Below, piece after piece: positions 21,306-46,621 of a DNA stretch of 64,000 bases; positions within the stretch are counted from its first letter, which is position 1; each line of letters starts with the position of its first letter. This stretch comes from an uncultured Alphaproteobacteria bacterium (GTDB lineage Bacteria > Pseudomonadota > Alphaproteobacteria > HIMB59). The position numbers and the translations under genes were made by a program. The notes under the pieces were generated by a model. That model saw only the letters and a list, made by a program, of their open reading frames with translations. It ran no database searches and was not told the DNA's origin. Where the stretch lies: assembly GCA_902527045.1 (NCBI GenBank), contig CABZNL010000002.1, forward strand, positions 62,001 through 126,000. The letters are read 5' to 3'.

Positions 21306-21322
21306 ATTTCACTTAGTGAAAT
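21306..21322. promoter_or_regulatory. Palindrome upstream of the aminotransferase operon, candidate operator
   Basis: ATTTCAC-TTA-GTGAAAT is a perfect inverted repeat with 7-base arms and a 3-base spacer. It lies 68 bases upstream of the 21391 start and just upstream of a plausible TTGTAA promoter element (21337-21342). No run of T follows, so it is not an intrinsic terminator for the tRNA. The binding protein is unknown. Confidence 0.4.
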
Positions 21323-21390: not shown

Positions 21391-22551
21391 ATGCCAGGTA
21401 AAATTTCACTTTTCGTTCCAGGTCCAACCAATATGCCTGATAGAGTAAGACAGGCAATGGATATTTCAAATGAGGACCACCGTGCACCAGGCATGGATAA
21501 ATTTTGGCATCCACTAATAAATGATTTAAAAAAAGTTTTTGAAACAACCTCAGGTCAACCAATTATATTTCCAGGTACAGGCTCTAGTGGATGGGAAGCA
21601 GCACTTACTAATTTATTAAGTAATGGAGATAAAGTTTTATCTGGAAGATTTGGACATTTTTCTCACCTTTGGATTGAAATGTGTAAAAAACTTCATATTG
21701 ATGTTGAAGAAGTAGATTGTGAATGGGGCTCAGGAACGCCTCATGAAGAATTTGAAAAGATATTATCAGCTGATAAAGAACATAAAATAAAAGCTTTACT
21801 TGTTACACAAAACGAAACATCTACTGGAGTAACAAATGATGTTAAAGCCACAAGAGAGCTTTTAAACAATCTTAACCATCCAGCTTTATTATTTGTCGAT
21901 GGGGTAAGCTCCATAGGTTCAATAAAATTTGAAATGGATGCGTGGGGCGTTGATGTTGCAGTCTCAGGATCTCAAAAAGGTTTTATGTTACCTGCAGGTC
22001 TTGCTATTACCTGCGTTAGTCAGAAGGCACTTGAAATTGCTAAAACTGCAAATTTACCTAGAGCCTATTACGATTATCAAGATATGTTAAAAATTAATGA
22101 AACAGGTTACTGGCCTTATACTAACCCAATGCCATTATTAAGAGGTCTTCGAGAGGCTCTTGATATGATGATGGAAGAAGGACTTGATAACATCTATTCA
22201 CGTCATAAGTTTTTAGCTGAAGCAGTTCAAAAAGCCTCAAGTGCTTGGGGACTTAAACTTTGTGCAAAAGATCCATCTTTATATTCTAATACTGTAACAG
22301 CTATCATGGTTCCAGAGGGTATTGACTCCACAGACGTTGTTAAAACAGCTTACAATAAATATAATACTTCCTTCGGCGGTGGATTGAATAAAGTCGCTGG
22401 AAAGTTATTTAGAATAGGTCACCTTGGTGATTTAAATAGTACTATGATACTTGGAGCAATTTCGACAGCCGAATTAGCAATGTATGATGTAGGAATAAAG
22501 TTTGAACTTGGAAGTGGCGTTGCTGCAGCCATCAAACATTTAAAAGTCTAG
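21391..22551 (+). CDS. Serine-glyoxylate (alanine-glyoxylate type) aminotransferase, class V
   Basis: This PLP enzyme most resembles serine-glyoxylate aminotransferase, which converts glyoxylate plus serine to glycine plus hydroxypyruvate. The N-terminus FVPGPTNMPDRVRQAMD and NEDHRAPGM are typical. FPGTGSSGWEAALTN and FVDGVSSIGSIKFEMD mark the cofactor site, and the PLP lysine is in SGSQKGFM (about residue 195). It has 386 residues. A purine-rich GAAAGGA ribosome-binding sequence precedes the ATG. It abuts the ketopantoate-reductase-family gene with no gap. Aspartate-glyoxylate aminotransferases are close relatives, so the amino donor is not certain. Confidence 0.8.
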   Translation: MPGKISLFVPGPTNMPDRVRQAMDISNEDHRAPGMDKFWHPLINDLKKVFETTSGQPIIFPGTGSSGWEAALTNLLSNGDKVLSGRFGHFSHLWIEMCKKLHIDVEEVDCEWGSGTPHEEFEKILSADKEHKIKALLVTQNETSTGVTNDVKATRELLNNLNHPALLFVDGVSSIGSIKFEMDAWGVDVAVSGSQKGFMLPAGLAITCVSQKALEIAKTANLPRAYYDYQDMLKINETGYWPYTNPMPLLRGLREALDMMMEEGLDNIYSRHKFLAEAVQKASSAWGLKLCAKDPSLYSNTVTAIMVPEGIDSTDVVKTAYNKYNTSFGGGLNKVAGKLFRIGHLGDLNSTMILGAISTAELAMYDVGIKFELGSGVAAAIKHLKV

Positions 22552-23529
22552 ATGAAAATTTGTATTTACGGTGCTGGTGCAATAGGTGGTTACCTTGGAG
22601 CAAAGTTAACTGAAATTGGCGCTGATGTCACTTTGATTGCAAGGGGCCCTCATTATGAAGCCATTAGACAAGATGGATTAAGATTAAGAAAAGATGGTAA
22701 AGAGCTTGTGGTTTATCCCAAGTGTGTTGACACAGCAGAGAAAGCAGGAAAGCAAGATTATATTTTTGTGACTCTAAAAGCGCATTCTGTGCCAGGTTGT
22801 CTTGATGCTTTTGAAGTACTTATGAAAGAAGATACGTCATTTGTCTGGGGTGTAAATGGTATTCCTTGGTGGTACTTTTATAATCACAGTAATCCTGGCT
22901 TCAAAGATAAAAAAGTTACCTCAGTAGATCCAGATGGAAGTCAATGGTCTCGAATAGGCCCTGAAAAAATTATTGGTTGTATTGTCAATCCAGCCTCAGA
23001 GGTCATCAAACCAGGTGTTATTCAACACCTAGAGGGTGACAAGTTTCAATTAGGAGAAATTAACGGCGAGGAAACAGATAGAATTAAAAATCTTTCTGAG
23101 ACATTAGAAAAAGCTGGATTTCAAGCACCAGTTAGACCAAATATTAAGGGAGATATATGGCTAAAGCTTTTTGGTAACTTGTCTCTTAACCCTATCAGTG
23201 CACTTACTACATCTACTCTTGTCAAAATATGTAGCAACCATGAAGTTAGGGATGTTGTCAAAAATATGATGAATGAAGCACATGCTATTTCTCAAAGATT
23301 AGGAATTGACAAACCTTTTGATGTGGAAAGAAGAATAGATGCTGCAAAAGCAGTCGGTGAACACAAAACATCAATGCTTCAAGATTTAGAACGTGATCGC
23401 CCAATGGAAATTGATGCTTTAATTTCTTCAGTTCAAGAACTTGGAAGAATTACAAACATTCCAACACCAACAATTGATACAGTGCTCGCTTTAACAAAAC
23501 TTAGAGCAAAAGAAGCAAAATTATATTAA
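22552..23529 (+). CDS. 2-dehydropantoate 2-reductase family (PanE/ApbA) oxidoreductase
   Basis: The N-terminal NADPH-binding motif [14 protein letters not shown] and the [14 protein letters not shown] segment define the ketopantoate reductase family. So does the C-terminal helix [23 protein letters not shown], with the catalytic lysine. At 325 residues it is full length. It directly abuts the glyoxylate aminotransferase, so its substrate may be a small 2-oxo acid or CoA ester rather than ketopantoate. A paralogue in Methylobacterium (PanE2) was shown to reduce oxalyl-CoA to glyoxylate, and the Frc gene downstream makes that attractive here. This is inference; pantothenate synthesis remains possible. 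Confidence 0.75.
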
Positions 23530-24398
23530 TTTAGTGCCTCTTTAATTGTTTCACCTAATTTTGCTGGTGACTTGGAGATATGAACTCCAGCTTCCTCTAA
23601 AGCACTAAACTTTGACTCAGCAGTGCCTTTTCCTCCGGATATAATGGCGCCGGCATGACCCATTCTTTTTCCAGCAGGAGCGCTTGCACCAGCTATAAAA
23701 GATGCAACTGGTTTTTTAATTTCAGATTTTTTTATAAACTCTGCAGCCTCTTCTTCAGCAGTGCCACCAATTTCTCCTATCATAATAATACCCTCAGTTT
23801 CAGGGTCTTTTAAAAACAGATCAAGACAGTCTATAAAGCTTGTACCGTTAATTGGATCTCCACCAATACCAATACAAGTTGATTGTCCTAGACCTACTGC
23901 AGATGTTTGAGCGACTGCTTCATAAGTAAGGGTCCCGGATCTACTAACAATACCTATTTTGCCTTTTTGATGAATATGGCCAGGCATGATACCTATTTTA
24001 CATTCATCTGGTGTAATTATTCCTGGACAGTTTGGACCAATTAAACGTGATTTCGATTTTTCTAATTTTCTTTTTACCCGCATCATATCTAGTACTGGGA
24101 CACCCTCAGTTATACAAACAATTAACTCTATATTAGCATCGATAGCTTCAATAATTGCCCCTGCAGCAAAGGGAGGTGGAACATATATTACAGTTGCATT
24201 TGCTTCAGTACTTTCTTTAGCTTCTTTGACACTGTTAAATACTGGAAGGCCCAAGTGTTCTTGACCACCTTTCTTTGGGGTCACGCCACCGACCATTAGT
24301 GTTCCGTATTTAATTGCTTGATCTGAATGGAAAGTTCCTTGCGAGCCTGTAAATCCTTGGCAAATTACTTTGGTATTTTTATCTATTAATACTGACAT
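23526..24398 (-). CDS. sucD: Succinate-CoA ligase (ADP-forming) subunit alpha
   Basis: SucD with SucC interconverts succinyl-CoA and succinate with nucleotide phosphorylation in the TCA cycle. CoA-binding N-terminus [19 protein letters not shown], the [19 protein letters not shown] segment and the phosphohistidine loop [18 protein letters not shown] (about His247) are intact. It has 290 residues. It follows sucC by ten bases on the minus strand, and its stop shares TTAA with the convergent reductase gene. The pair lies outside the usual mdh-sucCD-sucAB operon. Confidence 0.95.
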
Positions 24399-24408
24399 GA
24401 TCTTTCCT

Positions 24409-25596
24409 TTAATTTAAAGCCCTAACTGCTTTTTGAGCTGCATCATCTAAATTATCAGCAGATATGATTGAGAGCCCAGATTTATTTAAAATTTCTTTTC
24501 CTAGGTCAACATTGGTTCCTTCTAATCTTACTACCAATGGAACCTCTATAGACAACTCTTTAGCTGCAGCTACAACACCTTCAGCAATGATGTCACATTT
24601 CATGATACCGCCAAAAATATTTACCAAAATTGCTTTCACATTTGGATCCTGCAAAATAATAGAGAATGCTTTTGCTACTCTTTCTTTTGTAGCTCCACCT
24701 CCAACATCTAAAAAATTTGCAGGACTGCCACCATGTAATTTAATAATGTCCATTGTGCCCATTGCTAATCCTGCTCCATTAACCATGCAACCAATTTGAC
24801 CATCTAATTTTACATAGTTAAGTTCGTGTTTTGATGCTTCGATTTCAGCTGGATCTTCTTCAGTTTCATCTCTCATAGACACAACATCTTTATGTTTATA
24901 AAGTGCATTATCGTCTATGGATACTTTTGCATCTAAAGCTAAAAAATTACCTTCGCCAGTTAAAACAAAGGGATTAACCTCAACTAGAGATGCATCTGTT
25001 GATAAGAAGCTACTATATATTTTTTGAATTTGATCACAGAAGTCTGTTGATAGATTTTGATCTATTTTTAAACCTTTAATCAATTTATCTAAACTAATTT
25101 GATCAATCACACTATCCCCGGGTATGTAAACTTTAATGATTTTTTCAGGTTCTCTCTCAGCTACTTCTTCAATTTCCATGCCACCTTCGGTAGAAGCTAT
25201 TATTGAAATTGAAGAAGTAGCTCGATCTACCAGCATACTTAAGTAATACTCTTTTTTAATATCACAACCCTCCTCAATATAAAGGCGATTTACTTGCTTT
25301 CCGCTAGGACCGGTTTGTTTTGTTACCAGAGTTTTACCAAACATTTTTTTAGCATTATCTTTTGCCTCATCCTTCGAAAAACAAACTCTAACTCCACCTT
25401 TTTCATCACCACTATCTTTAAACTTACCCGCACCTCGTCCTCCGGCATGAATTTGAGATTTCACCACCATTACCGGTGTTTGGATAGAGTCTACAGCAGT
25501 ATCTATATCGCTATCATCCAAAACTGGATATCCATTTAAAACCCTTACATTATTATTTTTTAATAAAATTTTTGCTTGGTACTCGTGCAGATTCAT
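24409..25596 (-). CDS. sucC: Succinate-CoA ligase (ADP-forming) subunit beta
   Basis: The ATP-grasp beta subunit starts [12 protein letters not shown] and contains [15 protein letters not shown] followed by an insertion before KGGVRV, a hallmark of alphaproteobacterial Suc[11 protein letters not shown] and [14 protein letters not shown] are also present, as are [14 protein letters not shown] and [11 protein letters not shown]. The protein has 395 residues. I considered malate-CoA ligase (MtkA) because of the neighbouring glyoxylate aminotransferase, but the insertion and the NIFGGI motif favour succinate. It overlaps the upstream quinone oxidoreductase by four bases, forming a minus-strand operon. 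Confidence 0.93.
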
Positions 25597-26585
25597 GCCT
25601 GTTCTCCTTTTATATCTAATACTATTTTTCCGATGTGATCGGACTTTTCCATAACTTCGTGTGCTTTATTTACTTCATGCATTTTAAATGTTTCATAAAT
25701 TGTAGGTTTATATTTACCATCCTCTATCAAAGGCCATATTTCTTTTTGCACTTGATCGACAATACTTCCTTTTTCTAAAGGAGTTCTAGACCTCAATGTT
25801 GAACCAGAAATTTTTAGTTGTTTGTTCATAATATGTAGGAGATTAGCTTCACCTTTAATCCCACCTAATGCAGCTATGTATGTGAGTCTTCCTTTAAAAT
25901 TTAAAATTTTTAAATTTTTCTTTAGATATTCTCCTCCAACCATGTCTAATATAACATCAACTTTTATATTTTTATCATTAAAAAATTCCTCAAAATCTAA
26001 ATCTTTATAATTAATAGCTTCTGTGGCTCCTAATTCTATACAGCTCTCACACTTTTGATTTGTCCCTGCAGTAACATAAAGATTTTTTGTATAGTTTTTA
26101 AGAATAGAAATAGCTGTAGTGCCAATACCACTGCTTCCCCCATGTACCAGGATAGTTTCATCTTTTTGGAAGTTTGATACATTAAAAATATTTTCATAAA
26201 CAGTGAGTGTAGTTTCAGGCAAACCTCCCGCCTCAAGGGAATTTAAATTGCTTGGTAAGGGCATAACTTGTTTTTCATCAACATTTACAAATTCTGCATA
26301 ACCACCACCTGCAAGAATTGCACAAACTTGATCTCCCAAGCTAAATTTTTTTACTAACTTACCTAATTTTGAAACTTTGCCAGAGCACTCGAGACCAATT
26401 ATTTCACTTTCACCTTTTGGTGGAGGGTAGTGACCTTTTCTTTGAAGAATATCGGCTCTGTTGATACCAGCGTATTCAATTTCAATCTGTATTTGACTAT
26501 CGAGAGGATCATTCAATACTTTTTCATCTATAAAGAGATCACCCTCATTATTATTGATAAATTTCAAAATTATTTCCTCTGGCAT
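25593..26585 (-). CDS. NAD(P)H:quinone oxidoreductase, zinc-free MDR family (PIG3-like)
   Basis: The medium-chain dehydrogenase fold shows [19 protein letters not shown], the TP53I3/PIG3-type quinone reductase signature. GLECSGKV and the nucleotide motif [16 protein letters not shown] follow. Structural zinc cysteines are lacking. I start it at the ATG at 26585 (MPEEIILKF, 330 residues) rather than 26603, because a TATAAT box and a palindrome fill the bases between and beyond. The longer start is still possible. It leads the minus-strand sucCD operon. Substrate is unknown, probably a quinone or enone. Confidence 0.85.
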
Positions 26586-26586
26586 T

Positions 26587-26603
26587 TTGTATACATTATA
26601 CAA
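26587..26603. promoter_or_regulatory. Palindromic operator candidate (site 1 of a shared GntR-type motif)
   Basis: TTGTATA-CAT-TATACAA is a perfect 7-3-7 inverted repeat. Its 13-base core GTATACATTATAC recurs exactly at 30613, upstream of the ThDP enzyme gene. On the minus strand it contains a TATAAT -10 box for the quinone oxidoreductase, so a bound repressor would block that promoter. GntR/FCD regulators commonly bind T-x-G-T-x-x-A-C-x-A type palindromes, and such a regulator is encoded at 29921. Confidence 0.6.
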
Positions 26604-26687
26604 TTCTTAAAAACAATCTCTGTTATAAGGCTTATTAAAAGATAGCTTATACCAACAATATTCAGCAAAAATTTCAAACTATGGAAC

Positions 26688-26710
26688 ATTGAAAATTATT
26701 ATTTTTCAAT
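26688..26710. promoter_or_regulatory. Inverted repeat upstream of tctC
   Basis: ATTGAAAA and TTTTCAAT are perfect 8-base arms around a 7-base AT-only centre. The repeat ends 48 bases before the tctC ATG and overlaps the likely -35 region of a promoter whose -10 could be TATTCT at 26726. It is too AT-rich and lacks a T-run to be an intrinsic terminator. It may be an operator; the regulator is unknown. Confidence 0.35.
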
Positions 26711-26758
26711 CCACTATAAATAGTCTATTCTACGCCCTAACCTATAGGAGGAAACAAT

Positions 26759-27736
26759 ATGTCAATAATTAAGAAATTAGCATTAGTAGTTGTTTCACTT
26801 TCACTTGTCGCTGTTAGCTCAGTGTCTTCTGCGAAGCCTTTTAGTCCGAAGAAGCCTGTTGAGCTTATCATTCCAGCTGGTCAAGGTGGTGGAGCTGACG
26901 AAATCGCTAGATTAGTTCAAGGTGTTATCGAAAAGAACGATTACGCATCTAAGCCTGTGATCCCAATTAACAAATCTGGTGGATCAGGTGGTGAAGCTAT
27001 GACTTATGTTAAGAAAAAAGCTGGTGATGAGCACACACTTATCATTACTCTTAACAACGTTCTTACTACACCCGTAAACCAGCCAGAATTAGGCATTGAT
27101 TTCTTTAATGACTTTACACCTTTAGCAAGACTTATCACTGATACTTTCCTAGTATGGATTGCAACAGAAGGTAAGAACACTGCTGGTGTAGAGACATTTG
27201 ATGATTTCATTGACTTAGCAAAAGGTAACGGTCTTGTAATGGGTGGTACAGGAAGTATGTCTGAAGACGAATTACTTCTTGGTATGATGAGAGGTCAATT
27301 TGGATTTGACGCTAAGTATGTTCCATACAGCGGCGGTGGTGCTGTTGCTAAGGGACTAGTTGGTGGCGAGTCTGATTTCACATTAAACAACCCTTCAGAG
27401 CAAATGGGTTTCTACCAATCAGGTGACTCAAAAGCATTAGTCATGATGACTCCTGAAAGAAATCCTGCATTCCCTGAAGTACCATCTTCATATGAATTAG
27501 GTTATCCTGATCTTGAATACTACATGATGAGAGCATTTATGGCTCCGGCTGGTATTGATGCAGAAGTAGAGAAGTACTACACAGGTCTTCTTCACACTGT
27601 TTATCATGATGACGAATTCCAAACTTTCAATATTGACGACGGAAAGTTAATGAGTTGGTTAGAAGGTTTTGGTCTTAAAGACTTCTTAGCAATTGAATAC
27701 GCTAAGCACGGTGAGATCATTAAAAACTTTAACTAA
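26759..27736 (+). CDS. tctC: Tripartite tricarboxylate transporter substrate-binding protein, TctC family
   Basis: This is the periplasmic solute receptor of a TTT importer. The signal peptide (MSIIKKLALVVVSLSLVAVSSVSSA) is followed by the family N-terminus KPVELIIPAGQGGGADEIARL and the KSGGSGGEAMTYV segment. It has 325 residues. A strong TAGGAGG ribosome-binding site precedes it. The regular, GGT/CTT-rich codon use differs from neighbours and suggests high expression, as is usual for marine solute receptors. tctB and tctA follow. The ligand cannot be read from sequence; the downstream frc gene suggests oxalate or another small carboxylate. Confidence 0.93.
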   Translation: MSIIKKLALVVVSLSLVAVSSVSSAKPFSPKKPVELIIPAGQGGGADEIARLVQGVIEKNDYASKPVIPINKSGGSGGEAMTYVKKKAGDEHTLIITLNNVLTTPVNQPELGIDFFNDFTPLARLITDTFLVWIATEGKNTAGVETFDDFIDLAKGNGLVMGGTGSMSEDELLLGMMRGQFGFDAKYVPYSGGGAVAKGLVGGESDFTLNNPSEQMGFYQSGDSKALVMMTPERNPAFPEVPSSYELGYPDLEYYMMRAFMAPAGIDAEVEKYYTGLLHTVYHDDEFQTFNIDDGKLMSWLEGFGLKDFLAIEYAKHGEIIKNFN

Positions 27737-27755
27737 TAATTAAGTTACGAGCGAT

Positions 27756-28370
27756 ATGAGCATAACAAACAAAATAACTGTCAAAAGAGCAGAAATTGCT
27801 GTTGCTGTTATTTTAGCGTTATGCTCAATCGCTCTAATGATTAAAAGTGCAGAGAATAGGATTACATGGAATGCAGAAGAAAATATGGGTGCTGGATTTC
27901 TCCCTTTTTACCTATCTCTTGGCATGCTCATATGCACTATTCTTACTATAATAAAATTTGTTTTAAAAAGATCACCACAATCTAAAGATGACAGTCCTTT
28001 TATTGATGCAGTGGCTTTTAAATTTATAGCTGTGACTATTATTTCATTAGTCGTCTTAGTTCTAGCTATTGGCTATCTTGGAATTTACTTTTCGCTTATT
28101 TTCTTTTTGGCATTCTACCTAAGATATTTTAGTGAAAAAAGAATCTCATTCATTACAATATTTGCAATAACAACACCTATATTAACCTTTTTATTTTTTG
28201 AGTGGATGTTGAAAATACCTTTGCCTCAGGGAGTATCTGAGCCATTATTTTATCCAGTCTACGACTTTATGTATGGTGGATTTTCATTTGCTGTGAAAAT
28301 GATTTTTATTATTTTAACAGTTTTACTACCAACAGCTCTAGTTTTTTTAACATCTAGATTTATTAAATAA
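27756..28370 (+). CDS. tctB: Tripartite tricarboxylate transporter small membrane subunit, TctB family
   Basis: The 204-residue protein has four to five predicted membrane segments. These include VILALCSIALMIKSA at the N-terminus and a long hydrophobic middle (FIAVTIISLVVLVLAIGYLGIYFSLIFFLAFYL). The NMGAGFLPFYLSLGMLI stretch corresponds to the conserved G-p-x-x-f-P motif of TctB. It lies between tctC and tctA, as expected for a TTT operon. TctB proteins are poorly conserved, so position contributes strongly to the call. Confidence 0.88.
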   Translation: MSITNKITVKRAEIAVAVILALCSIALMIKSAENRITWNAEENMGAGFLPFYLSLGMLICTILTIIKFVLKRSPQSKDDSPFIDAVAFKFIAVTIISLVVLVLAIGYLGIYFSLIFFLAFYLRYFSEKRISFITIFAITTPILTFLFFEWMLKIPLPQGVSEPLFYPVYDFMYGGFSFAVKMIFIILTVLLPTALVFLTSRFIK

Positions 28371-28396
28371 TTGTTTAGAGTGAATAATTAAATCAT

Positions 28397-29920
28397 ATGG
28401 AAACAGTTGGATTTCTTTTAGACGGCATTTTTACATCACTTCAGTGGTTTAATTTAGCACTACTAATATTTGGATGCTTAATAGGTTTGTTTGTTGGAGC
28501 AATGCCTGGTCTTGGTTCAGTTAATGGTGTAGCAATTCTTATTCCCATTACTTTTATTATTCCACCCACTGCAGCAATAATTTTTCTTGCTGCTGTATAC
28601 TACGGTGCAATGTATGGAGGAGCCATTAGCTCTGTTATGCTTGGAATTCCGGGAGCCTCTACTGCAGTTGCCACAGTTTTTGACGGCAGACCACTTGCGG
28701 TCAAAGGAGAGGCTATGACTGCATTAACTGCTGCTGCAGTTGGTTCATTTGTTGGTGGTACTGTCTCTGTTATTCTATTTACTTTATTTGCCCCACCTCT
28801 TGCTGAAGTTGCACTCAGGTTTAATGCTCCAGAAACATTTGCTTTAATGGTTATGGCTTTCGCAACGTTTGTAGGTTTAGGTGGAGACGATGTACCTAAA
28901 ACTATTTTTTCAATTTTAATCGGACTAGCACTATCAACTATTGGTTTGGATTTAATTACTGGAAAACCAAGATTAATTTTCTTTAACATACCAGGTTTCC
29001 TTCATGGAATTAATTTCCTAGTTTTAGCTATAGGTATATACGGAATAGGCGAAATGCTTTGGACCCTTGAGGAGACAAAAGGCAAAGTTCAAATGTCAAA
29101 ACTATCTGTTAACATGAAAGAAGTTGGAAGAGCATTTGGTGCACTTAAAAAAACTATTATGGCAATGAACATAGGCTCTTTTTTAGGCTTCTTTGTTGGA
29201 ATTCTACCTGCAGCAGGTGCAACACCTGCTTCACTCATGTCATACGGTATCACAAAACAATTATCAAAAAACTCCAAAGAATTTGGAGAGGGTGTTCCAG
29301 CAGGTGTTGTAGCACCAGAGTGTGCAAACAACTCAGCAAGTACAGGAAGTATGCTTCCTATGTTAACACTTGGAATACCTGGATCTCCTACTACAGCTAT
29401 TTTACTCGGAGGTATGATCCTATGGGGACTTACTCCTGGTCCTCTTTTGTTTACGCAAGAACCCGAGTTTGTATGGGGTTTGATCGGAAGTCTTTACATA
29501 GCAAATTTCTTTACACTTGTTCTAAATATTGCATTAATACCTGCCTTTTTAATGGTCTTAAGAATACCTTTTGCTATCTTAGCTCCAGTTATTTTTGTGC
29601 TTTGCGTAACAGGAGGTTATGCGCCCACTCAAAGTTTGCACGATGTATGGCTGATGTTACTATTTGGATTTGCAGGATATATCTTAAGAAAATTAGATTA
29701 TCCAGTTGCACCTGCAGTTTTGTCAATTGTTCTTGGTCCTTTGGCTGAAAAAGCTTTAAGACAATCTTTGATTTTATCTGACGGTAGTATGGGGATATTT
29801 TTTGATGTTTCGGAAAAACCTATTGCAGCTGTGATAATGTATATAGCTATTGTACTTTTAATAATGCCCGCATTTGGTCCTCTCTATAGAAGACTCTTTA
29901 AAAAAAAACAAACAGCTTAA
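28397..29920 (+). CDS. tctA: Tripartite tricarboxylate transporter large permease, TctA family
   Basis: TctA is the main membrane channel of the TTT importer, driven by an ion gradient. The 507-residue protein has about eleven to twelve hydrophobic segments and the family signatures GAMPGLGSVNGVAILIP and YYGAMYGGAISSVMLGIPG. The repeat-like GILPAAGATPASLMSYG and TLGIPGSPTTAILLGGM are also present. It completes the tctC-tctB-tctA order. The GntR gene begins directly after its stop, so transporter and regulator are probably co-transcribed. Confidence 0.95.
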   Translation: METVGFLLDGIFTSLQWFNLALLIFGCLIGLFVGAMPGLGSVNGVAILIPITFIIPPTAAIIFLAAVYYGAMYGGAISSVMLGIPGASTAVATVFDGRPLAVKGEAMTALTAAAVGSFVGGTVSVILFTLFAPPLAEVALRFNAPETFALMVMAFATFVGLGGDDVPKTIFSILIGLALSTIGLDLITGKPRLIFFNIPGFLHGINFLVLAIGIYGIGEMLWTLEETKGKVQMSKLSVNMKEVGRAFGALKKTIMAMNIGSFLGFFVGILPAAGATPASLMSYGITKQLSKNSKEFGEGVPAGVVAPECANNSASTGSMLPMLTLGIPGSPTTAILLGGMILWGLTPGPLLFTQEPEFVWGLIGSLYIANFFTLVLNIALIPAFLMVLRIPFAILAPVIFVLCVTGGYAPTQSLHDVWLMLLFGFAGYILRKLDYPVAPAVLSIVLGPLAEKALRQSLILSDGSMGIFFDVSEKPIAAVIMYIAIVLLIMPAFGPLYRRLFKKKQTA

Positions 29921-30580
29921 ATGATTCAAAAAATAGGAGCTGTAAACCTCAAAGGTAAAGTATATGAGTCTTTAAAAAAATATATTTTATCTTTGAATAT
30001 ATATTTAAAAGAAAGTGATTTTCATTTAGATGAAAGACAATTGTCAGAAAAGCTAGGAGTTAGTCGAACACCTATAAGAGAGGCTGTTGCCAAATTAGAG
30101 CAAGAGGGTATTGTAAAAACCGTTCCAAGAAGAGGTGTGTTTGTCCATAGAAAATCAAAAAAAGATTTGGTTGATATTGTAACTGTTTGGGCAGGACTAG
30201 AGGGATATGCAGCACACTTAATTATTAAAAATTCAAAAAAAGAAGAAATAGAAAGTTTAAATAAATTCTGTCATTACTCTAAGGAGAACGTTTTATCTGA
30301 ATTAGACAACTACTCAAAGGATAACATCAAATTCCATAATCAAATCATGAAATTAACTAAGGTTAAATTAATGGGAGAAATTTTGGAGTCTCAATTAATC
30401 CATTTACAATACCTTAGGAAAAAGTTTATAATCGAGTCAAATAGGGCTGTCAAATCTATTGATGAACACAATGACATTGTTAGATCTCTTGTCGCAGGAC
30501 AGGCATCAAAAGCAGAAAAACTTCTTAAAAATCACGCACTTACATTAGTGGATAAGATTCAAGAAAGCATTAATTCATAA
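29921..30580 (+). CDS. GntR-family transcriptional regulator, FCD subfamily
   Basis: The N-terminal winged helix (about residues 10-75) shows RQLSEKLGVSRTPIREAVAKLEQEGIV and RRGVFV, textbook GntR. The C-terminal FCD helical domain carries conserved acidic/histidine positions (FHNQIM, EHNDIVRSL, KNHA), likely a metal and organic-acid ligand site. It has 219 residues. It sits between tctA and the ThDP-enzyme gene, and a perfect palindrome lies immediately downstream in the promoter of that gene. I infer it is a substrate-responsive repressor of the local catabolic genes. Confidence 0.92.
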   Translation: MIQKIGAVNLKGKVYESLKKYILSLNIYLKESDFHLDERQLSEKLGVSRTPIREAVAKLEQEGIVKTVPRRGVFVHRKSKKDLVDIVTVWAGLEGYAAHLIIKNSKKEEIESLNKFCHYSKENVLSELDNYSKDNIKFHNQIMKLTKVKLMGEILESQLIHLQYLRKKFIIESNRAVKSIDEHNDIVRSLVAGQASKAEKLLKNHALTLVDKIQESINS

Positions 30581-30609
30581 GGCAAAATTCTTTGCAACAC
30601 CTAATAATC

Positions 30610-30626
30610 TGGTATACATTATACCA
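30610..30626. promoter_or_regulatory. Palindromic operator candidate (site 2) in the promoter of the ThDP-enzyme operon
   Basis: TGGTATA-CAT-TATACCA is a perfect 7-3-7 inverted repeat sharing 13 central bases with the site at 26587. A TTGCAA element at 30592 lies 17 bases before TACATT (30615-30620), so the palindrome covers the presumed -10 box. An AGAGAGG ribosome-binding site and the ATG at 30642 follow. This is the expected place for autologous GntR control. Confidence 0.65.
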
Positions 30627-30641: not shown

Positions 30642-32318
30642 ATGTCTACAGGAACGAACGAACAAATGATAACTGGCGGTGAGCTAGTAGCTAAAGCCCT
30701 TAAAGCGGAGGGAGTTGAAGTGATTTACACTTTATGTGGAGGACACATTATTGACATTTATAATGGATGTTTAAATGAAGGAATTAAAATCATTGACGTT
30801 CGTCACGAAGAAGTTGCCTCTCATGCTGCTGACGGATACGCACGAATGACTGGTAAACCAGGTTGTGCAGTTGTAACTGCCGGTCCAGGAACCACTCATG
30901 CTTTAACAGGTGTTGCAAACGCTTTTAGAGCTGAAATTCCGATGCTTTTAATTGGTGGACAGAGTTCTCTTACGCAACATAAAATGGGATCTTTACAAGA
31001 TTTGCCTCACGTAGACATGATGCAACCCATTACAAAATTCGCTGCTACAGTAATGTCAACTGAGAGATGCGCAGACATGGTCTCAATGGCTTTCAGGGAA
31101 ACTAGAAATGGATCGTTTGGCCCATCTTTCTTAGAAATTCCAAGAGACATCCTTGACTCATCTATTCCAATGAGTAAAGCTGTTTTACCACAGGCAGGTA
31201 AGTATAGTGCCTCATCAAAAACATTAGCAGATCCAACAGATGTTCAAAAAGCTGCTGATATAATTTCAAAAGCAGAAAGACCTTGCGTACTTTTGGGTCA
31301 ACAAGTTTGGACTTGCCAGTCAACTGATGAAGCAATTGAATTTGTTAGAAATATGAACATACCTGCTTATTTAAATGGTGCTGCCAGAGGTTCAATGGCA
31401 CCAGGAGACCCACATCACTTTCATAGAACTAGAAGGAATGCATTTACTAAATCAGATTGTATTATAATTGTTGGAACACCATTCGATTTCAGAATGGGAT
31501 ATGGAAAAAGATTAAACCCAAATGCAACTGTGATTCAAATTGATATGGATTATAGAACCGTAGGAAAAAATAGAGACATCTCTCTTGGCTTAGTCGGTCA
31601 TATTGGAACAACTCTAAAAGCTATTTCAGAGGCAGGAACAAAGAAAGATAGATCAGATTGGTTTGGTGAACTTCGATCAGGTGAAGAGGCCGCATTAGAA
31701 AAGCTGATGCCTACTTTTACAACTGATAAATCTCCAATCAGCCCTTATAGAGTGGCATGGGAACTTAATCAGTTTTTGAATGATGACACGATATATATTG
31801 GTGATGGTGGAGATGTCGTTACTATCAGTGCTCAGGCTGTACAACCAAGAATGCCAGGTGCTTGGATGGATCCCGGACCTCTTGGAACATTAGGAGTTGG
31901 AGTACCTTACGCGCTTGCTGCAAAATTAGCGGCTCCAGAAAAAGAAATTCTTTTATACTGTGGCGATGGAGCGTTTTCTATGACTGGTATGGATTTTGAG
32001 GCATTTGTTCGTCACAAAGCTCCTGTTTTAACTGTTATAGGTAACAACTCTGCTCAAAATCAGATCAGATTTGGACAAATTATGAAGTACGGAGAAGATA
32101 AAGGTAATGTTGGAAACATCCTAGGCGATGTTAACTTTGATGAATTTGCAAAAATCTTTGGTGGTCATGGCGAGGCTGTTAGAGAAGCAAAAGAAATTCA
32201 ACCAGCCCTTAAACGAGCAAGAGAAGCTGTAAAGTCAGGTATCCCTGCTATAGTTAATATTTGGGTTGATAAAGAAGAATTTGCGCCTGGTACTAAAAAC
32301 CAGACTATGTACAAATAA
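30642..32318 (+). CDS. ThDP-dependent acyl-CoA lyase/decarboxylase (oxalyl-CoA decarboxylase or 2-hydroxyacyl-CoA lyase type)
   Basis: The 558-residue protein has the three-domain layout of the acetolactate synthase superfamily. The cofactor-activating glutamate is in RHEEVASHAADGYAR (Glu56). The ThDP-magnesium motif is GDGAFSMTGMDFEAFVRHK, continuing to GNN, in the C-terminal domain. Residues such as MGSLQDLPHVDMMQPITKFA resemble 2-hydroxyacyl-CoA lyases. The next gene, frc, argues for oxalyl-CoA, giving formyl-CoA and CO2. Classical Oxc and HACL read GDSAFGFSGME here, so this is a distinct branch. Its exact substrate is unresolved. True acetolactate synthesis seems unlikely in this operon. 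Confidence 0.75.
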   Translation: MSTGTNEQMITGGELVAKALKAEGVEVIYTLCGGHIIDIYNGCLNEGIKIIDVRHEEVASHAADGYARMTGKPGCAVVTAGPGTTHALTGVANAFRAEIPMLLIGGQSSLTQHKMGSLQDLPHVDMMQPITKFAATVMSTERCADMVSMAFRETRNGSFGPSFLEIPRDILDSSIPMSKAVLPQAGKYSASSKTLADPTDVQKAADIISKAERPCVLLGQQVWTCQSTDEAIEFVRNMNIPAYLNGAARGSMAPGDPHHFHRTRRNAFTKSDCIIIVGTPFDFRMGYGKRLNPNATVIQIDMDYRTVGKNRDISLGLVGHIGTTLKAISEAGTKKDRSDWFGELRSGEEAALEKLMPTFTTDKSPISPYRVAWELNQFLNDDTIYIGDGGDVVTISAQAVQPRMPGAWMDPGPLGTLGVGVPYALAAKLAAPEKEILLYCGDGAFSMTGMDFEAFVRHKAPVLTVIGNNSAQNQIRFGQIMKYGEDKGNVGNILGDVNFDEFAKIFGGHGEAVREAKEIQPALKRAREAVKSGIPAIVNIWVDKEEFAPGTKNQTMYK

Positions 32319-32334: not shown

Positions 32335-33582
32335 ATGGAAGCTTTAAAAGGTGTCAAAATATTAGACATGACTCACGTTCAATCCGGTCCCACTTGTACA
32401 CAATTATTAGCTTGGTTTGGTGCAGATGTAGTCAAAGTAGAAAGACCAGGAGTAGGAGACGCTACTAGAGGTCAATTAAGAGATGTTCCTGATGCAGACA
32501 GCTTGTATTTTACAATGCTCAATTCTAATAAAAGAAGTATTACACTAAATCCAAAGAAACCAGAAGGTTCAAAAATATTCACTAAACTAATAAAAGAATG
32601 TGATGTAATGGTCGAAAACTTTGCTCCAGGTGCTTTAGATAGAATGGGTTTTTCTTGGGAAAAAATTCAGGAGATAAATTCAAGAATGATCTATGCATCT
32701 GTTAAGGGCTTTGGTCCGGGTAAGTACGAGGATTGTAAAGTTTATGAGAATGTTGCTCAATGCGCAGGTGGATCAGCATCAACAACAGGTATGCTTGGCG
32801 AAGTCCCACTAGTTACCGGCGCTCAAATAGGAGATAGTGGAACAGGATTACATCTAGCATTAGGCATTGTTACCGCATTGTTTCACAGAGAAAAGTCAGG
32901 AAAAGGTCAAAGAGTATCTGCTGCTATGCAAGACGGTGTTTTAAATCTTTGCAGAGTAAAACTTCGTGATCAACAAAGGCTCTCCAAAGGACCTTTAAAA
33001 GAATACTCTCAATTTGGAGAAAATATTCCTTTTGATGACGCCACGCCTCGTGCAGGTAATGACTCTGGTGGAGGTCAACCAGGAAGAATTCTAAAATGTA
33101 AAGGTTGGGAGACTGATCCTAATGCCTATACTTATTTTATTACTCAAGCTGCAGTTTGGGAAAAAGTATGTGATGTTATTGGAAAACCTGAATGGAAAGA
33201 AGACGAGAGTTACTCAACTCCTGCGCTTAGATTACCAAAACTTAATGAAATCTTTAATACAATCGAAGCTTGGACTAAGACTAAGACAAAATTTGAGGTT
33301 ATGGATATATGCAACCCTCTTGATATACCAGTTGGCCCAATCCTTTCTCTAAAAGAGTTGGCTGAAGATCAAGGACTGCGAGATACCAATACAATAGTTG
33401 AGGTTGATCATCCTGAAAGAGGAAAATATTTAACAGTTGGCAATCCAATTAAATTATCAGACTCTCCAGCAAAAGTTGAAAGGTCTCCACTTCTCGGAGA
33501 ACATACAGATGAGATACTTAAGGAATTTTGCCAAATGAGTGAAGATGAAATTAAAGCTGTAAGAGAAGCCGGAGCAGTATAA
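32335..33582 (+). CDS. frc: Formyl-CoA:oxalate CoA-transferase (class III, CaiB/BaiF family)
   Basis: Frc moves CoA from formyl-CoA to oxalate, giving formate and oxalyl-CoA. Similarity to the Oxalobacter enzyme, recalled from memory, is very high: [51 protein letters not shown] and GGGQPG then KCKGWETD. The catalytic aspartate is in IGDSGTG (Asp167). Gln47 (TRGQLRD) stands where Oxalobacter Frc has Trp48, as in E. coli YfdW. The length is 415 residues. An AGGAGG site precedes it, 16 bases after the ThDP-enzyme gene. Substrate assignment is the firmest in this locus, though related acids cannot be excluded. Confidence 0.9.
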
Positions 33583-33608: not shown

Positions 33609-34526
33609 ATGAAGTTAATTTTAATGGGACAACAAGCATTTGGAAAAAGTGCTTTAGAAAAATTTCATACAGAAACAGAGCACGAAGTTGTAGCAGTATA
33701 TTGTGCTCCCGATAAAGAAGGTAAACCAGTTGATCCTGTAAAGGAATATGCCCAAAGTGTAAGTCTCCCAGTATTTCAACCATCGAACTTTAAAGATCAA
33801 GAGGTATTAGATCAAATAAGGTCACATGGAGCAGATTTATGTGTAATGGCATATGTTATTATTTTCGTTCCTGAAGGGGCAAGAGATATTCCTACTCATG
33901 GTTCAATATGTTTTCACCCTTCATTACTTCCATTACATAGAGGCCCAAGTTCTATTAACTGGCCAATCATTGGTGGATCAACTAAAACAGGTCTCTCAAT
34001 CTTTTATCCTAACGACGGATTAGATGAAGGTGAGATATTACTTCAAAAAGAAGTCGACATAGCACCCGATGATACTTTGGGTGATGTTTACTTCAAAAAA
34101 ATATTTCCATTGGGTCTTGATGCTTGCGTAGAAGCAGCAAATCTAATTGAGTCCGGAAACGCACCAAAAACACCCCAAGACGACTCTAAAGCTACATATG
34201 AATCTTGGTGCAAAAAAAGTGATGCCCGAATTGATTGGAAAAAGCCTGGAAATGAAATTTACAACCTAATAAGAGGCTGTAACCCTCAACCAGGTGCATG
34301 GGCTGAATTTATGGGAGATGAGTATACATTCTACGATAGTAAATTTATTGATGAACAAAGCGCAGAGCATTTCCCTGGTCAAATAATATCAATAAGTACT
34401 GAGAATGTTAGAATAGCTGTAAAAGGTGGATTTATTGAAGTATCAAGGTTTAAATCTGATCAAGGTAAATTATTTGTAAAAGACATGAACACTGCAGTAT
34501 TTACAGAGGGTGATTTATTCTCATAA
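33609..34526 (+). CDS. Stand-alone formyltransferase/10-formyl-THF hydrolase-type protein (ALDH1L N-domain-like)
   Basis: The 305-residue protein resembles the N-terminal hydrolase domain of 10-formyltetrahydrofolate dehydrogenase more than methionyl-tRNA formyltransferase. Evidence is the N-terminus LILMGQQAFGKSALE, the catalytic block CFHPSLLPLHRGPSSINW (His103) and DGLDEGEILLQKEV (Asp139). The C-terminal IYNLIRGCNPQPGAW belongs to the formyl-transferase C domain. There is no fused aldehyde dehydrogenase. Third in an operon producing formyl-CoA, it may pass the formyl group to or from tetrahydrofolate or release formate; that is inference. An AAGGAG site precedes the ATG. Confidence 0.8.
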   Translation: MKLILMGQQAFGKSALEKFHTETEHEVVAVYCAPDKEGKPVDPVKEYAQSVSLPVFQPSNFKDQEVLDQIRSHGADLCVMAYVIIFVPEGARDIPTHGSICFHPSLLPLHRGPSSINWPIIGGSTKTGLSIFYPNDGLDEGEILLQKEVDIAPDDTLGDVYFKKIFPLGLDACVEAANLIESGNAPKTPQDDSKATYESWCKKSDARIDWKKPGNEIYNLIRGCNPQPGAWAEFMGDEYTFYDSKFIDEQSAEHFPGQIISISTENVRIAVKGGFIEVSRFKSDQGKLFVKDMNTAVFTEGDLFS

Positions 34527-45130: not shown

Positions 45131-46621
45131 TTATTTCATAGTTGGCATGTTGAGTGAAGCCCCTGCGACATCATCTGGCCATCTTGATGTTATAGTCTTT
45201 CTTTTGGTATAAAAGTTAATTCCTTCTTCTCCATGCATTCCATGACCACCAAATATTGAGCCTTTCCAGCCACCAAAAGTATAAAATGACATAGGCACTG
45301 GTATAGGAATATTGATACCAACCATCCCAATTTGGACATTCTTCATAAAATTTCTTGCGAATGCCCCATTAGATGTATAAATGGAAGTTCCATTTCCAAA
45401 TTTATGCTTATTTATTAAGTTCAAAGCATCTTCAAAGTTGTTCATATTCAACACAGATAAAACAGGTCCAAATATTTCCTCTTTGTAAATGGACATATTT
45501 TCGCTAACGTCATTAAATATTGTAGGACCAACAAAATTACCATTTTCATAACCTTGTAGACTAATTCCTCTGCCATCTAGTTCTAATTTTGCACCTTCTT
45601 CAACTCCTTTTTCAATAAATGAAAGAACTTTTTGTTTGTGTTCTTTTGTAATGAGTGGTCCCATTTCACTTTGTGGGTCTAAAGACTCTCCAACTTTAAT
45701 TTTATTAGCTTTCTCTTTTAATAAATCCATAAATGGTTTTTGGATTTTACCAATAGGCATAGCTACTGAAGTTGCCATGCAACGTTCACCCGCAGATCCA
45801 AAAGCAGCCCCAATTAATCCATTTACTGCATCCTCTAAATTTGCATCTTCCATTATTAGCATATGGTTTTTTGCACCACCAAGAGCTTGAACTCTTTTAT
45901 TTGTTTTTGAACACTCAGTGTAAATATACTTAGCGACAGGTGTTGACCCAACAAAACTTACAGAAGAAATATCTTCGCATTGAAGAATTAGATCTACGAC
46001 ATTTTTATCACCATTTACTACTGTAAGAATATTATCAGGAAGACCTGCCTCACTTATTAATTCTGCAAGTTTCAAAGAGCATTGAGGAACTTTTTCAGAG
46101 GGTTTAAGCATAAAGGCATTCCCACATGCAATTGATAATGGAAACATCCACATTGGAACCATAGCTGGGAAATTAAAAGGTGTTATTCCTGCACAGATTC
46201 CTAAAGGTTGTTTAATATCAAACAAATCTACGTTTGTGCCAACGTTAATTGAGTGATTTCCTTTCAACAAATGTGGTATACCGCATGCAAAGTCAACTAC
46301 TTCAAGACCTCTTTGTAAAGATCCTTTTGCATCAGAAAATACTTTACCATGTTCTTCAGAAATGATTTTTGCAATCAAATCAAAATTTTTTTCAATTAAA
46401 ACTTTAAACTTAAATAAAATATCACTTCTCTTTGTAATAGGAGTATTGGCCCATACAGATTGAGCTGATTTCATTTTACTAATTATTTTTTCAAACTCAT
46501 TTCTAGTGGTTTTTGGTACATGTGCATATTCCTCACCCGTACTAGGGTTATATAATTTTATAAACTCTTCTGAATTACTAGATAATCCCTTAGAGTCAAA
46601 GAAATTTTCAATTATTTTCAT
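45131..46621 (-). CDS. mmsA: Methylmalonate-semialdehyde dehydrogenase (CoA-acylating)
   Basis: MmsA oxidises methylmalonate or malonate semialdehyde to propionyl- or acetyl-CoA in valine, inositol or beta-alanine breakdown. The 496-residue ALDH-family protein has GITPFNFPAMVPMWMFPLSI and SFVGSTPVAKYIY. QALGGAKNHMLIM, with GGAKN replacing the usual ELGG of other ALDHs, and the nucleophile GSAGERCMATS are both MmsA hallmarks. The start is ATG at 46621, facing the TPP riboswitch promoter region. No valine pathway partner is adjacent. Confidence 0.93.
   Translation of the reverse strand: MKIIENFFDSKGLSSNSEEFIKLYNPSTGEEYAHVPKTTRNEFEKIISKMKSAQSVWANTPITKRSDILFKFKVLIEKNFDLIAKIISEEHGKVFSDAKGSLQRGLEVVDFACGIPHLLKGNHSINVGTNVDLFDIKQPLGICAGITPFNFPAMVPMWMFPLSIACGNAFMLKPSEKVPQCSLKLAELISEAGLPDNILTVVNGDKNVVDLILQCEDISSVSFVGSTPVAKYIYTECSKTNKRVQALGGAKNHMLIMEDANLEDAVNGLIGAAFGSAGERCMATSVAMPIGKIQKPFMDLLKEKANKIKVGESLDPQSEMGPLITKEHKQKVLSFIEKGVEEGAKLELDGRGISLQGYENGNFVGPTIFNDVSENMSIYKEEIFGPVLSVLNMNNFEDALNLINKHKFGNGTSIYTSNGAFARNFMKNVQIGMVGINIPIPVPMSFYTFGGWKGSIFGGHGMHGEEGINFYTKRKTITSRWPDDVAGASLNMPTMK

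Follow-up and report, generated by a model that had tools for sequence, protein, structure and literature searches.

A conserved palindrome as the probable operator of an FCD-type GntR regulator linking frc, sucCD and fhs genes in HIMB59-clade alphaproteobacteria

Related pathways and regulators

Methylobacterium extorquens assimilates oxalate through formyl-coenzyme A (CoA) transferase (Frc), oxalyl-CoA decarboxylase (OXC), the oxalyl-CoA reductase PanE2 and the serine cycle. PanE2 has been described as a putative oxalyl-CoA reductase, and Y134, E135, Y497 and S568 are highlighted as active-site residues of MeOXC (PMC8411744). In E. coli, frc stands beside a gene for an OXC-superfamily enzyme in the yfdXWUVE (frc-oxc) operon, which is controlled by EvgA and includes neither fhs nor sucCD (PMC3720670). 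A cluster related to both systems lies in a 64,000-nucleotide (nt) stretch of DNA from an uncultured alphaproteobacterium of the HIMB59 clade (assembly GCA_902527045.1, contig CABZNL010000002.1, positions 62,001 to 126,000), analysed here at its full length and called the window. Two near-identical palindromes in it flank a block of transporter genes that ends in gntR, the gene of a GntR-type regulator. The cluster shares with M. extorquens Frc, an OXC-superfamily enzyme, a PanE-family reductase, formate-tetrahydrofolate ligase (Fhs) and a glyoxylate aminotransferase, and in some relatives mcl-mtkAB (malyl-CoA lyase-like protein and malate-CoA ligase). It differs in its thiamine diphosphate (ThDP) enzyme, which lacks the OXC residues, in its tripartite tricarboxylate-type transporter, and in the link to a regulator, which is new here. 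With E. coli it has in common the pairing of frc with an OXC-superfamily gene and a Frc of 59% identity, whereas the ThDP enzymes are only 26% identical and the linked regulator is a GntR protein in place of EvgA.

Operators of the FadR/FCD subfamily carry TKGT/ACMA boxes, usually with a GT-AC distance of 2-3 nt, and a canonical site with an extra half-site is reported for many regulators of this family (PMC4494728). E. coli NanR, an FCD-type GntR repressor with sialic acid as its ligand, recognizes direct (GGTATA)n repeats (PMC8012715). The regulator in the window (gntR, 29921..30580, plus strand, final gene of the tct operon) matches the winged-helix family PF00392 at 49.2 bits (cut-off 27) and the FCD effector family PF07729 at 49.4 bits (cut-off 24.3). 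It shares with the FadR/FCD subfamily this domain pair, an AT-rich palindrome with TKGT/ACMA boxes, and extra half-sites; one difference is that the outer boxes here are 9 nt apart. Likenesses to NanR are the FCD-type architecture, the hexamer GGTATA, multiple half-sites and a position downstream of the polymerase site, whereas the repeats here are inverted and the genes are others. A direct GGTATA pair was seen only in one relative (L049), where the direct repeat GGTATACAATTGGTATAC stands at the half-site region described below, so the arrangement in the window is not of the NanR type.

The class of system is known, and the literature searched yielded no description of this regulon. The search found no account of a FadR/FCD regulator with formyl-CoA, Fhs, SucCD and Pnt as its target set, no described GntR regulator of oxalate use, and no paper treating both HIMB59 and oxalate.

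Two palindromes and a third site in the source genome

The palindromes are TTGTATACATTATACAA at 26587-26603, upstream of the leftward qor-sucCD genes, and TGGTATACATTATACCA at 30610-30626, between gntR and the ThDP gene. Each has perfect 7-base arms around a CAT centre, and their common 13-base core, GTATACATTATAC, has no further exact copy in the window. The first-pass annotation had picked out this pair, correctly, and had proposed a regulon that joins qor-sucCD to ThDP-frc through the adjacent GntR. That proposal now appears well supported by conservation, by the lack of sites in a sister family, by sites before distant gntR genes and by a site before sucCD in one distant genome (G169). There is good reason to regard the palindromes as operators of the linked FCD-type GntR and the regulon as real, with the regulator identified by genomic association. 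The sites are judged strong because they are conserved in the genus, are absent along with GntR in the sister family, and recur before distant gntR genes.

Recurrence inside the window is by itself weak evidence and only suggestive. Perfect 7-3-7 palindromes are no rarity in DNA this rich in AT, where 17 were counted and shuffling predicts 10.9, and a palindrome pair with a shared 13-nt core also turned up in 4 of 200 dinucleotide shuffles of the window. Taken alone, such figures would suit two similar palindromes that arose by chance in AT-rich intergenic DNA. The strength comes from genome comparison: conservation at all orthologous loci, 30 fhs sites in 30 loci, absence from the sister family and distant recurrence with gntR refute the chance explanation and leave it a negligible probability.

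The source genome comprises 1.15 Mb in 34 contigs and is 82% complete. It contains three exact matches to KGTATANNNTATACM, two in the window and one on contig C19, against none for the reversed-pattern control. About 27 nt separate the C19 site, GGTATACAATATACC, from the start codon (ATG) of fhs downstream of it. The scan for random occurrence elsewhere that the first-pass annotation had called for therefore returned one other exact site only, and the regulon stands. This third site supports the regulon because the fhs enzyme consumes formate that the pathway would make. With two mismatches allowed, the genome yields 277 matches against 300 for the reversed control, which is background; weak matches are therefore disregarded, and near-perfect sites alone are taken as meaningful. 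Near matches in the window at 46274, 59136 and 34322 were dismissed, as all fall within genes. On this sequence evidence, the regulon of the source genome very probably consists of qor-sucCD, ThDP-frc-fmtL and, outside the window, fhs.

Conservation across relatives

Among 39 orthologous gntR loci (L018-L056), each of the two sites is kept wherever the contig reaches, even in relatives whose GntR is 73-77% identical. The arms are constant while the centre switches between CAT and CAA. Mean pairwise identity over the 17 bp is 0.99 at the ThDP site against 0.68-0.78 in neighbouring 17-bp blocks, and 0.92 at the qor site against 0.47-0.55; at the fhs site it is 1.00, partly by construction, since the loci of that set were picked for carrying the inner 15 bp exactly. 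Examined without selection on the site, all 30 fhs loci in the genus have a perfect site in the promoter. The 52 genomes together hold 145 exact sites, compared with 41 matches of the reversed control. In G029 and L051 the qor site is double, with two copies that overlap at a 7-nt offset.

Further targets are found in parts of the genus. A site upstream of pntAA is perfect in G029, G061, G009 and G025, has one mismatch in G062, and is degenerate or absent in most others. The site upstream of mcl-mtkAB is exact in three of the five genomes with these genes and has one mismatch in a fourth. An exact palindrome that runs into the ATG precedes the gene of a 127-residue membrane protein without a Pfam match in four relatives (L204-L206, L232), and is absent from that position in the window's own genome. 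In G029, an ABC sugar-type transporter (L150) is also preceded by a site, one not seen in the other listed genomes. Three recurring or isolated matches were not counted as operators: TGGTATTAAGGATACCA, seen repeatedly in relatives, falls within the tctA coding sequence; a palindrome in G025 (C22:67005) between ABC-transporter genes has the flanks GGAGGG/CCCTCC and is terminator-like; and a match in G012 (C23:18874) lies within a gene.

A sister family of the same order has no GntR ortholog, and fhs is present in its 23 genomes. No palindrome was found upstream of fhs in these 23 (best matches have 2-4 mismatches), with the proviso that for a few, such as L240, L253 and L255, the sequence read came from somewhere other than the true upstream region. 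The family's few exact pattern matches have a different sequence, mostly TGTATATGGTATACA. This TGTATATGGTATACA is one recurrent site in most genomes of the family (f2), for example at G037:C1:355055-355069.

Of about 380 other alphaproteobacteria sampled, 11 have an ortholog of the ThDP enzyme (61-71% identical), and the neighbourhoods of these genes hold gntR (39-46% identical), tctCBA, frc and fmtL. These loci were scanned with TKGTAT-N5-ATACMA, and the shared element is TGGTAT-N5-ATACCA. Every gntR with enough upstream DNA (six loci: L272-L276 and L279) is preceded by a site with 0-2 mismatches, and in three of these upstream regions the site is doubled, the two copies overlapping with an offset of 7 nt. 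Sites also stand before tctC (L273 and L274, weaker in L275), before oxlT, the gene of an oxalate/formate antiporter (L276), and before the ThDP gene in L274, the same position as that of the second operator in the window. Where gntR is not adjacent, as in four distant loci (L278, L280-L282), the scan gives no site at up to one mismatch. In G319, two of the three matches with at most one mismatch in 5.5 Mb fall in the ThDP-gntR locus, as do two of the three perfect matches in G131. The single perfect match in G169 sits between mdh and sucCD; the sucCD link is therefore not peculiar to the window. G142 has a one-mismatch site before an mtkA-like gene. The sites outside the cluster in G169, G142 and G131 come from single genomes each, and any one alone could be chance. 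The G131 case is a one-mismatch copy, AGGTATACAATATACCA (L305:1115), before succinate dehydrogenase (sdh) genes, a hint at wider control of the tricarboxylic acid cycle.

The palindromes might instead be true operators of another regulator, such as another FCD paralog or a global factor, with the nearby gntR a bystander. Some relatives (G029, G009) do encode a second FCD-type protein, and binding by the linked GntR is predicted from genomic association. The site nevertheless follows the gntR lineage, being found before gntR in the six distant loci and not, at up to one mismatch, in the four loci without an adjacent gntR; it is also missing together with GntR from the sister family, and its boxes are of the FadR-subfamily type. 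Control by another regulator is accordingly improbable.

Several observations weigh against assignment of the sites to the linked GntR. The pntAA, mcl and 127-residue-protein sites occur in some relatives only, and in most HIMB59 genomes the tct-gntR operon has no near-perfect site in front, which gives no clear sign of gntR autoregulation in HIMB59. The 9-nt GT-AC spacing of the outer palindrome departs from the usual 2-3 nt, and promoter scoring gave no sigma-70-like promoter over either palindrome.

Mode of regulation

The outer boxes, TTGT...ACAA and TGGT...ACCA, fit the TKGT/ACMA consensus of the FadR subfamily (PMC4494728). The inner 10-mer TKGTATACMA has a GT-AC distance of 2; CAA-centred sites and L274 match it perfectly, and the CAT-centred sites of the window match it with one mismatch. 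From these sequences, the operator is best read as a canonical TKGTATACMA with one additional half-site. A separate putative half-site, TTATACCA at 26648..26655 on the tctC side of the first operator, had been reported by the first-pass annotation; it is present as a degenerate copy of TGTATACCA, the form found in some relatives.

Upstream of ThDP, qor, pntAA and fhs, the distance from site to start codon is about 15-30 nt in most genomes and includes a Shine-Dalgarno-like stretch. This position fits a repressor covering the -10/+1 region. Overlap of both palindromes with -10 boxes had been suggested earlier. A TATAAT on the minus strand of the first operator speaks for it, and the lack of a scored promoter against it, so that the overlap is plausible. 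As no consensus promoter was scored at the sites, repression is what we infer. GntR is probably a repressor whose dimer would bind over the -10 region, or immediately downstream, and stop transcription until a compound of the pathway, a small carboxylate or the corresponding CoA ester, freed it from the operator.

Closeness to start codons and TATAAT-like runs inside the palindromes might also indicate RNA hairpins or core promoter elements in place of a protein-binding site. The asymmetric centre, however, is found in both orientations relative to transcription (ThDP versus qor and fhs), which favours action on DNA over RNA. The arms vary asymmetrically (TGG versus TTG), a hairpin of 7 AU-rich base pairs around a 3-nt loop would have little stability, and in distant genomes the element stands about 150 nt upstream of sucC and oxlT. 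An RNA or core promoter element is very unlikely.

Genes of the locus and proposed pathway

The leftward unit begins with qor (25593..26567, minus strand), whose product is similar to MDR-type quinone oxidoreductases and passes the TIGR02824 cut-off. It does not start at the palindrome: its start is set at TTG 26567, after AGAGG and 19 nt from the palindrome, with the N-terminus MKF(I/V)N common to relatives. It is followed by sucC (24409..25596, minus strand; succinyl-CoA synthetase beta, PRK00696 543 bits, cut-off 370) and sucD (23526..24398, minus strand; alpha, PRK05678 and TIGR01019 above cut-off). One sucC was found in the source genome (G000), as in the complete relative G029, and the operator would therefore act on the only succinyl-CoA synthetase. 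Relatives that bear mcl have a second sucC-type copy, of the malate-CoA ligase type.

Rightward, tctC-tctB-tctA (26759..29920, plus strand) encode the tripartite tricarboxylate-type transporter, identified from a Pfam match of TctC, the open reading frames and tct orthologs in the distant clusters. Beyond gntR and the second operator follow the ThDP gene (30642..32318, plus strand), frc (32335..33582, plus strand) and fmtL (33609..34526, plus strand). Frc is clearly a formyl-CoA transferase by sequence (TIGR03253 691 bits, cut-off 504).

The ThDP enzyme belongs to the OXC/2-hydroxyacyl-CoA lyase superfamily and falls below the OXC cut-offs (TIGR03254 246 bits against 739, PRK09259 257 bits against 557). 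L, Q, I and N occupy the positions of Y, E, Y and S in E. coli Oxc. Its best PDB matches are 2-hydroxyacyl-CoA lyases, although the score on the lyase model NF058623 (351 bits) is below the cut-off of 600. Judged by sequence, it is not a canonical OXC, because four active-site positions are replaced and its closest solved relatives are lyases. Members of this ThDP clade in alphaproteobacteria, at 61-71% identity, are neighbours of frc and in some cases of oxlT, yet lack the four OXC active-site residues.

These replacements (Y134, E135, Y497 and S568 of MeOXC) and the lyase matches allow a regulon of the same genes in which a 2-hydroxyacyl-CoA lyase and formyl-CoA would serve the breakdown of a 2-hydroxy acid in place of oxalate. 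A GntR gene also accompanies an actinobacterial 2-hydroxyisobutyryl-CoA lyase (PMC7176365). Frc, however, passes the cut-off for oxalate-type formyl-CoA transferases. Orthologous clusters in relatives include OxlT (beside the cluster in L276 and L278, 611-673 bits, cut-off 335), glyoxylate carboligase and a PanE homolog, and an operator site precedes oxlT. A 2-hydroxy acid is a possibility to be taken seriously; oxalate is the likely substrate, favoured by the association with OxlT and glyoxylate carboligase.

The N-terminal domain of 10-formyl-tetrahydrofolate dehydrogenase hands a formyl group to a phosphopantetheine thiol. FmtL, a formyltransferase, resembles this domain (4qpd is the top PDB match at 215 bits, and the best Fmt reaches 137 bits) and is below the Fmt cut-off (TIGR00460 157 bits against 201.5). 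Its gene, labelled 'methionyl-tRNA formyltransferase', accompanies frc and fhs in distant genomes; fhs directly follows fmtL in the same direction in three distant loci (L273, L274, L275). FmtL may transfer formyl groups between CoA and tetrahydrofolate, because it is closest to that domain and travels with frc and fhs.

Left of sucD, a PanE/ApbA-family reductase gene (22552..23529, plus strand) adjoins a gene for a class V aminotransferase of the glyoxylate type (21391..22551, plus strand; BhcA model 572 bits, below the cut-off of 650). A panE homolog adjoins frc in L279, where a qor homolog follows it, and lies near frc in L276. Homology at family level suggests that the PanE-like protein could be an oxalyl-CoA reductase. 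No operator was found for the reductase gene and no site upstream of the aminotransferase gene. Another perfect palindrome, ATTTCACTTAGTGAAAT (21306-21322), lies between a tRNA-like sequence and the aminotransferase gene and is unlike the GntR site.

In the proposed pathway, the transporter would import oxalate or a related acid, which Frc and the ThDP enzyme would convert to formyl-CoA and formate. FmtL and Fhs would load the one-carbon (C1) unit onto tetrahydrofolate, PanE and the aminotransferase would deal with glyoxylate, and SucCD, with pntAB and mcl-mtkAB in relatives, would be co-induced and carry products onward. A more speculative extension, which we consider doubtful, is an undescribed C1 route in abundant ocean bacteria, in which a non-OXC ThDP clade would make formyl-CoA, FmtL would pass the formyl group from CoA directly to tetrahydrofolate and save the ATP of Fhs, and one GntR would coordinate this with SucCD, PntAB and serine-cycle genes.

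Significance

Little is known about regulation in the streamlined and mostly uncultured alphaproteobacteria of the sea, and comparison here yields a regulator, its probable operator and a coherent target set. It also offers a role for genes that carry the labels 'quinone oxidoreductase', 'acetolactate synthase' and 'methionyl-tRNA formyltransferase'. The regulon suggests that in HIMB59/AEGEAN-169 cells C1-folate loading and succinyl-CoA synthetase are tied to the use of oxalate or a related acid.

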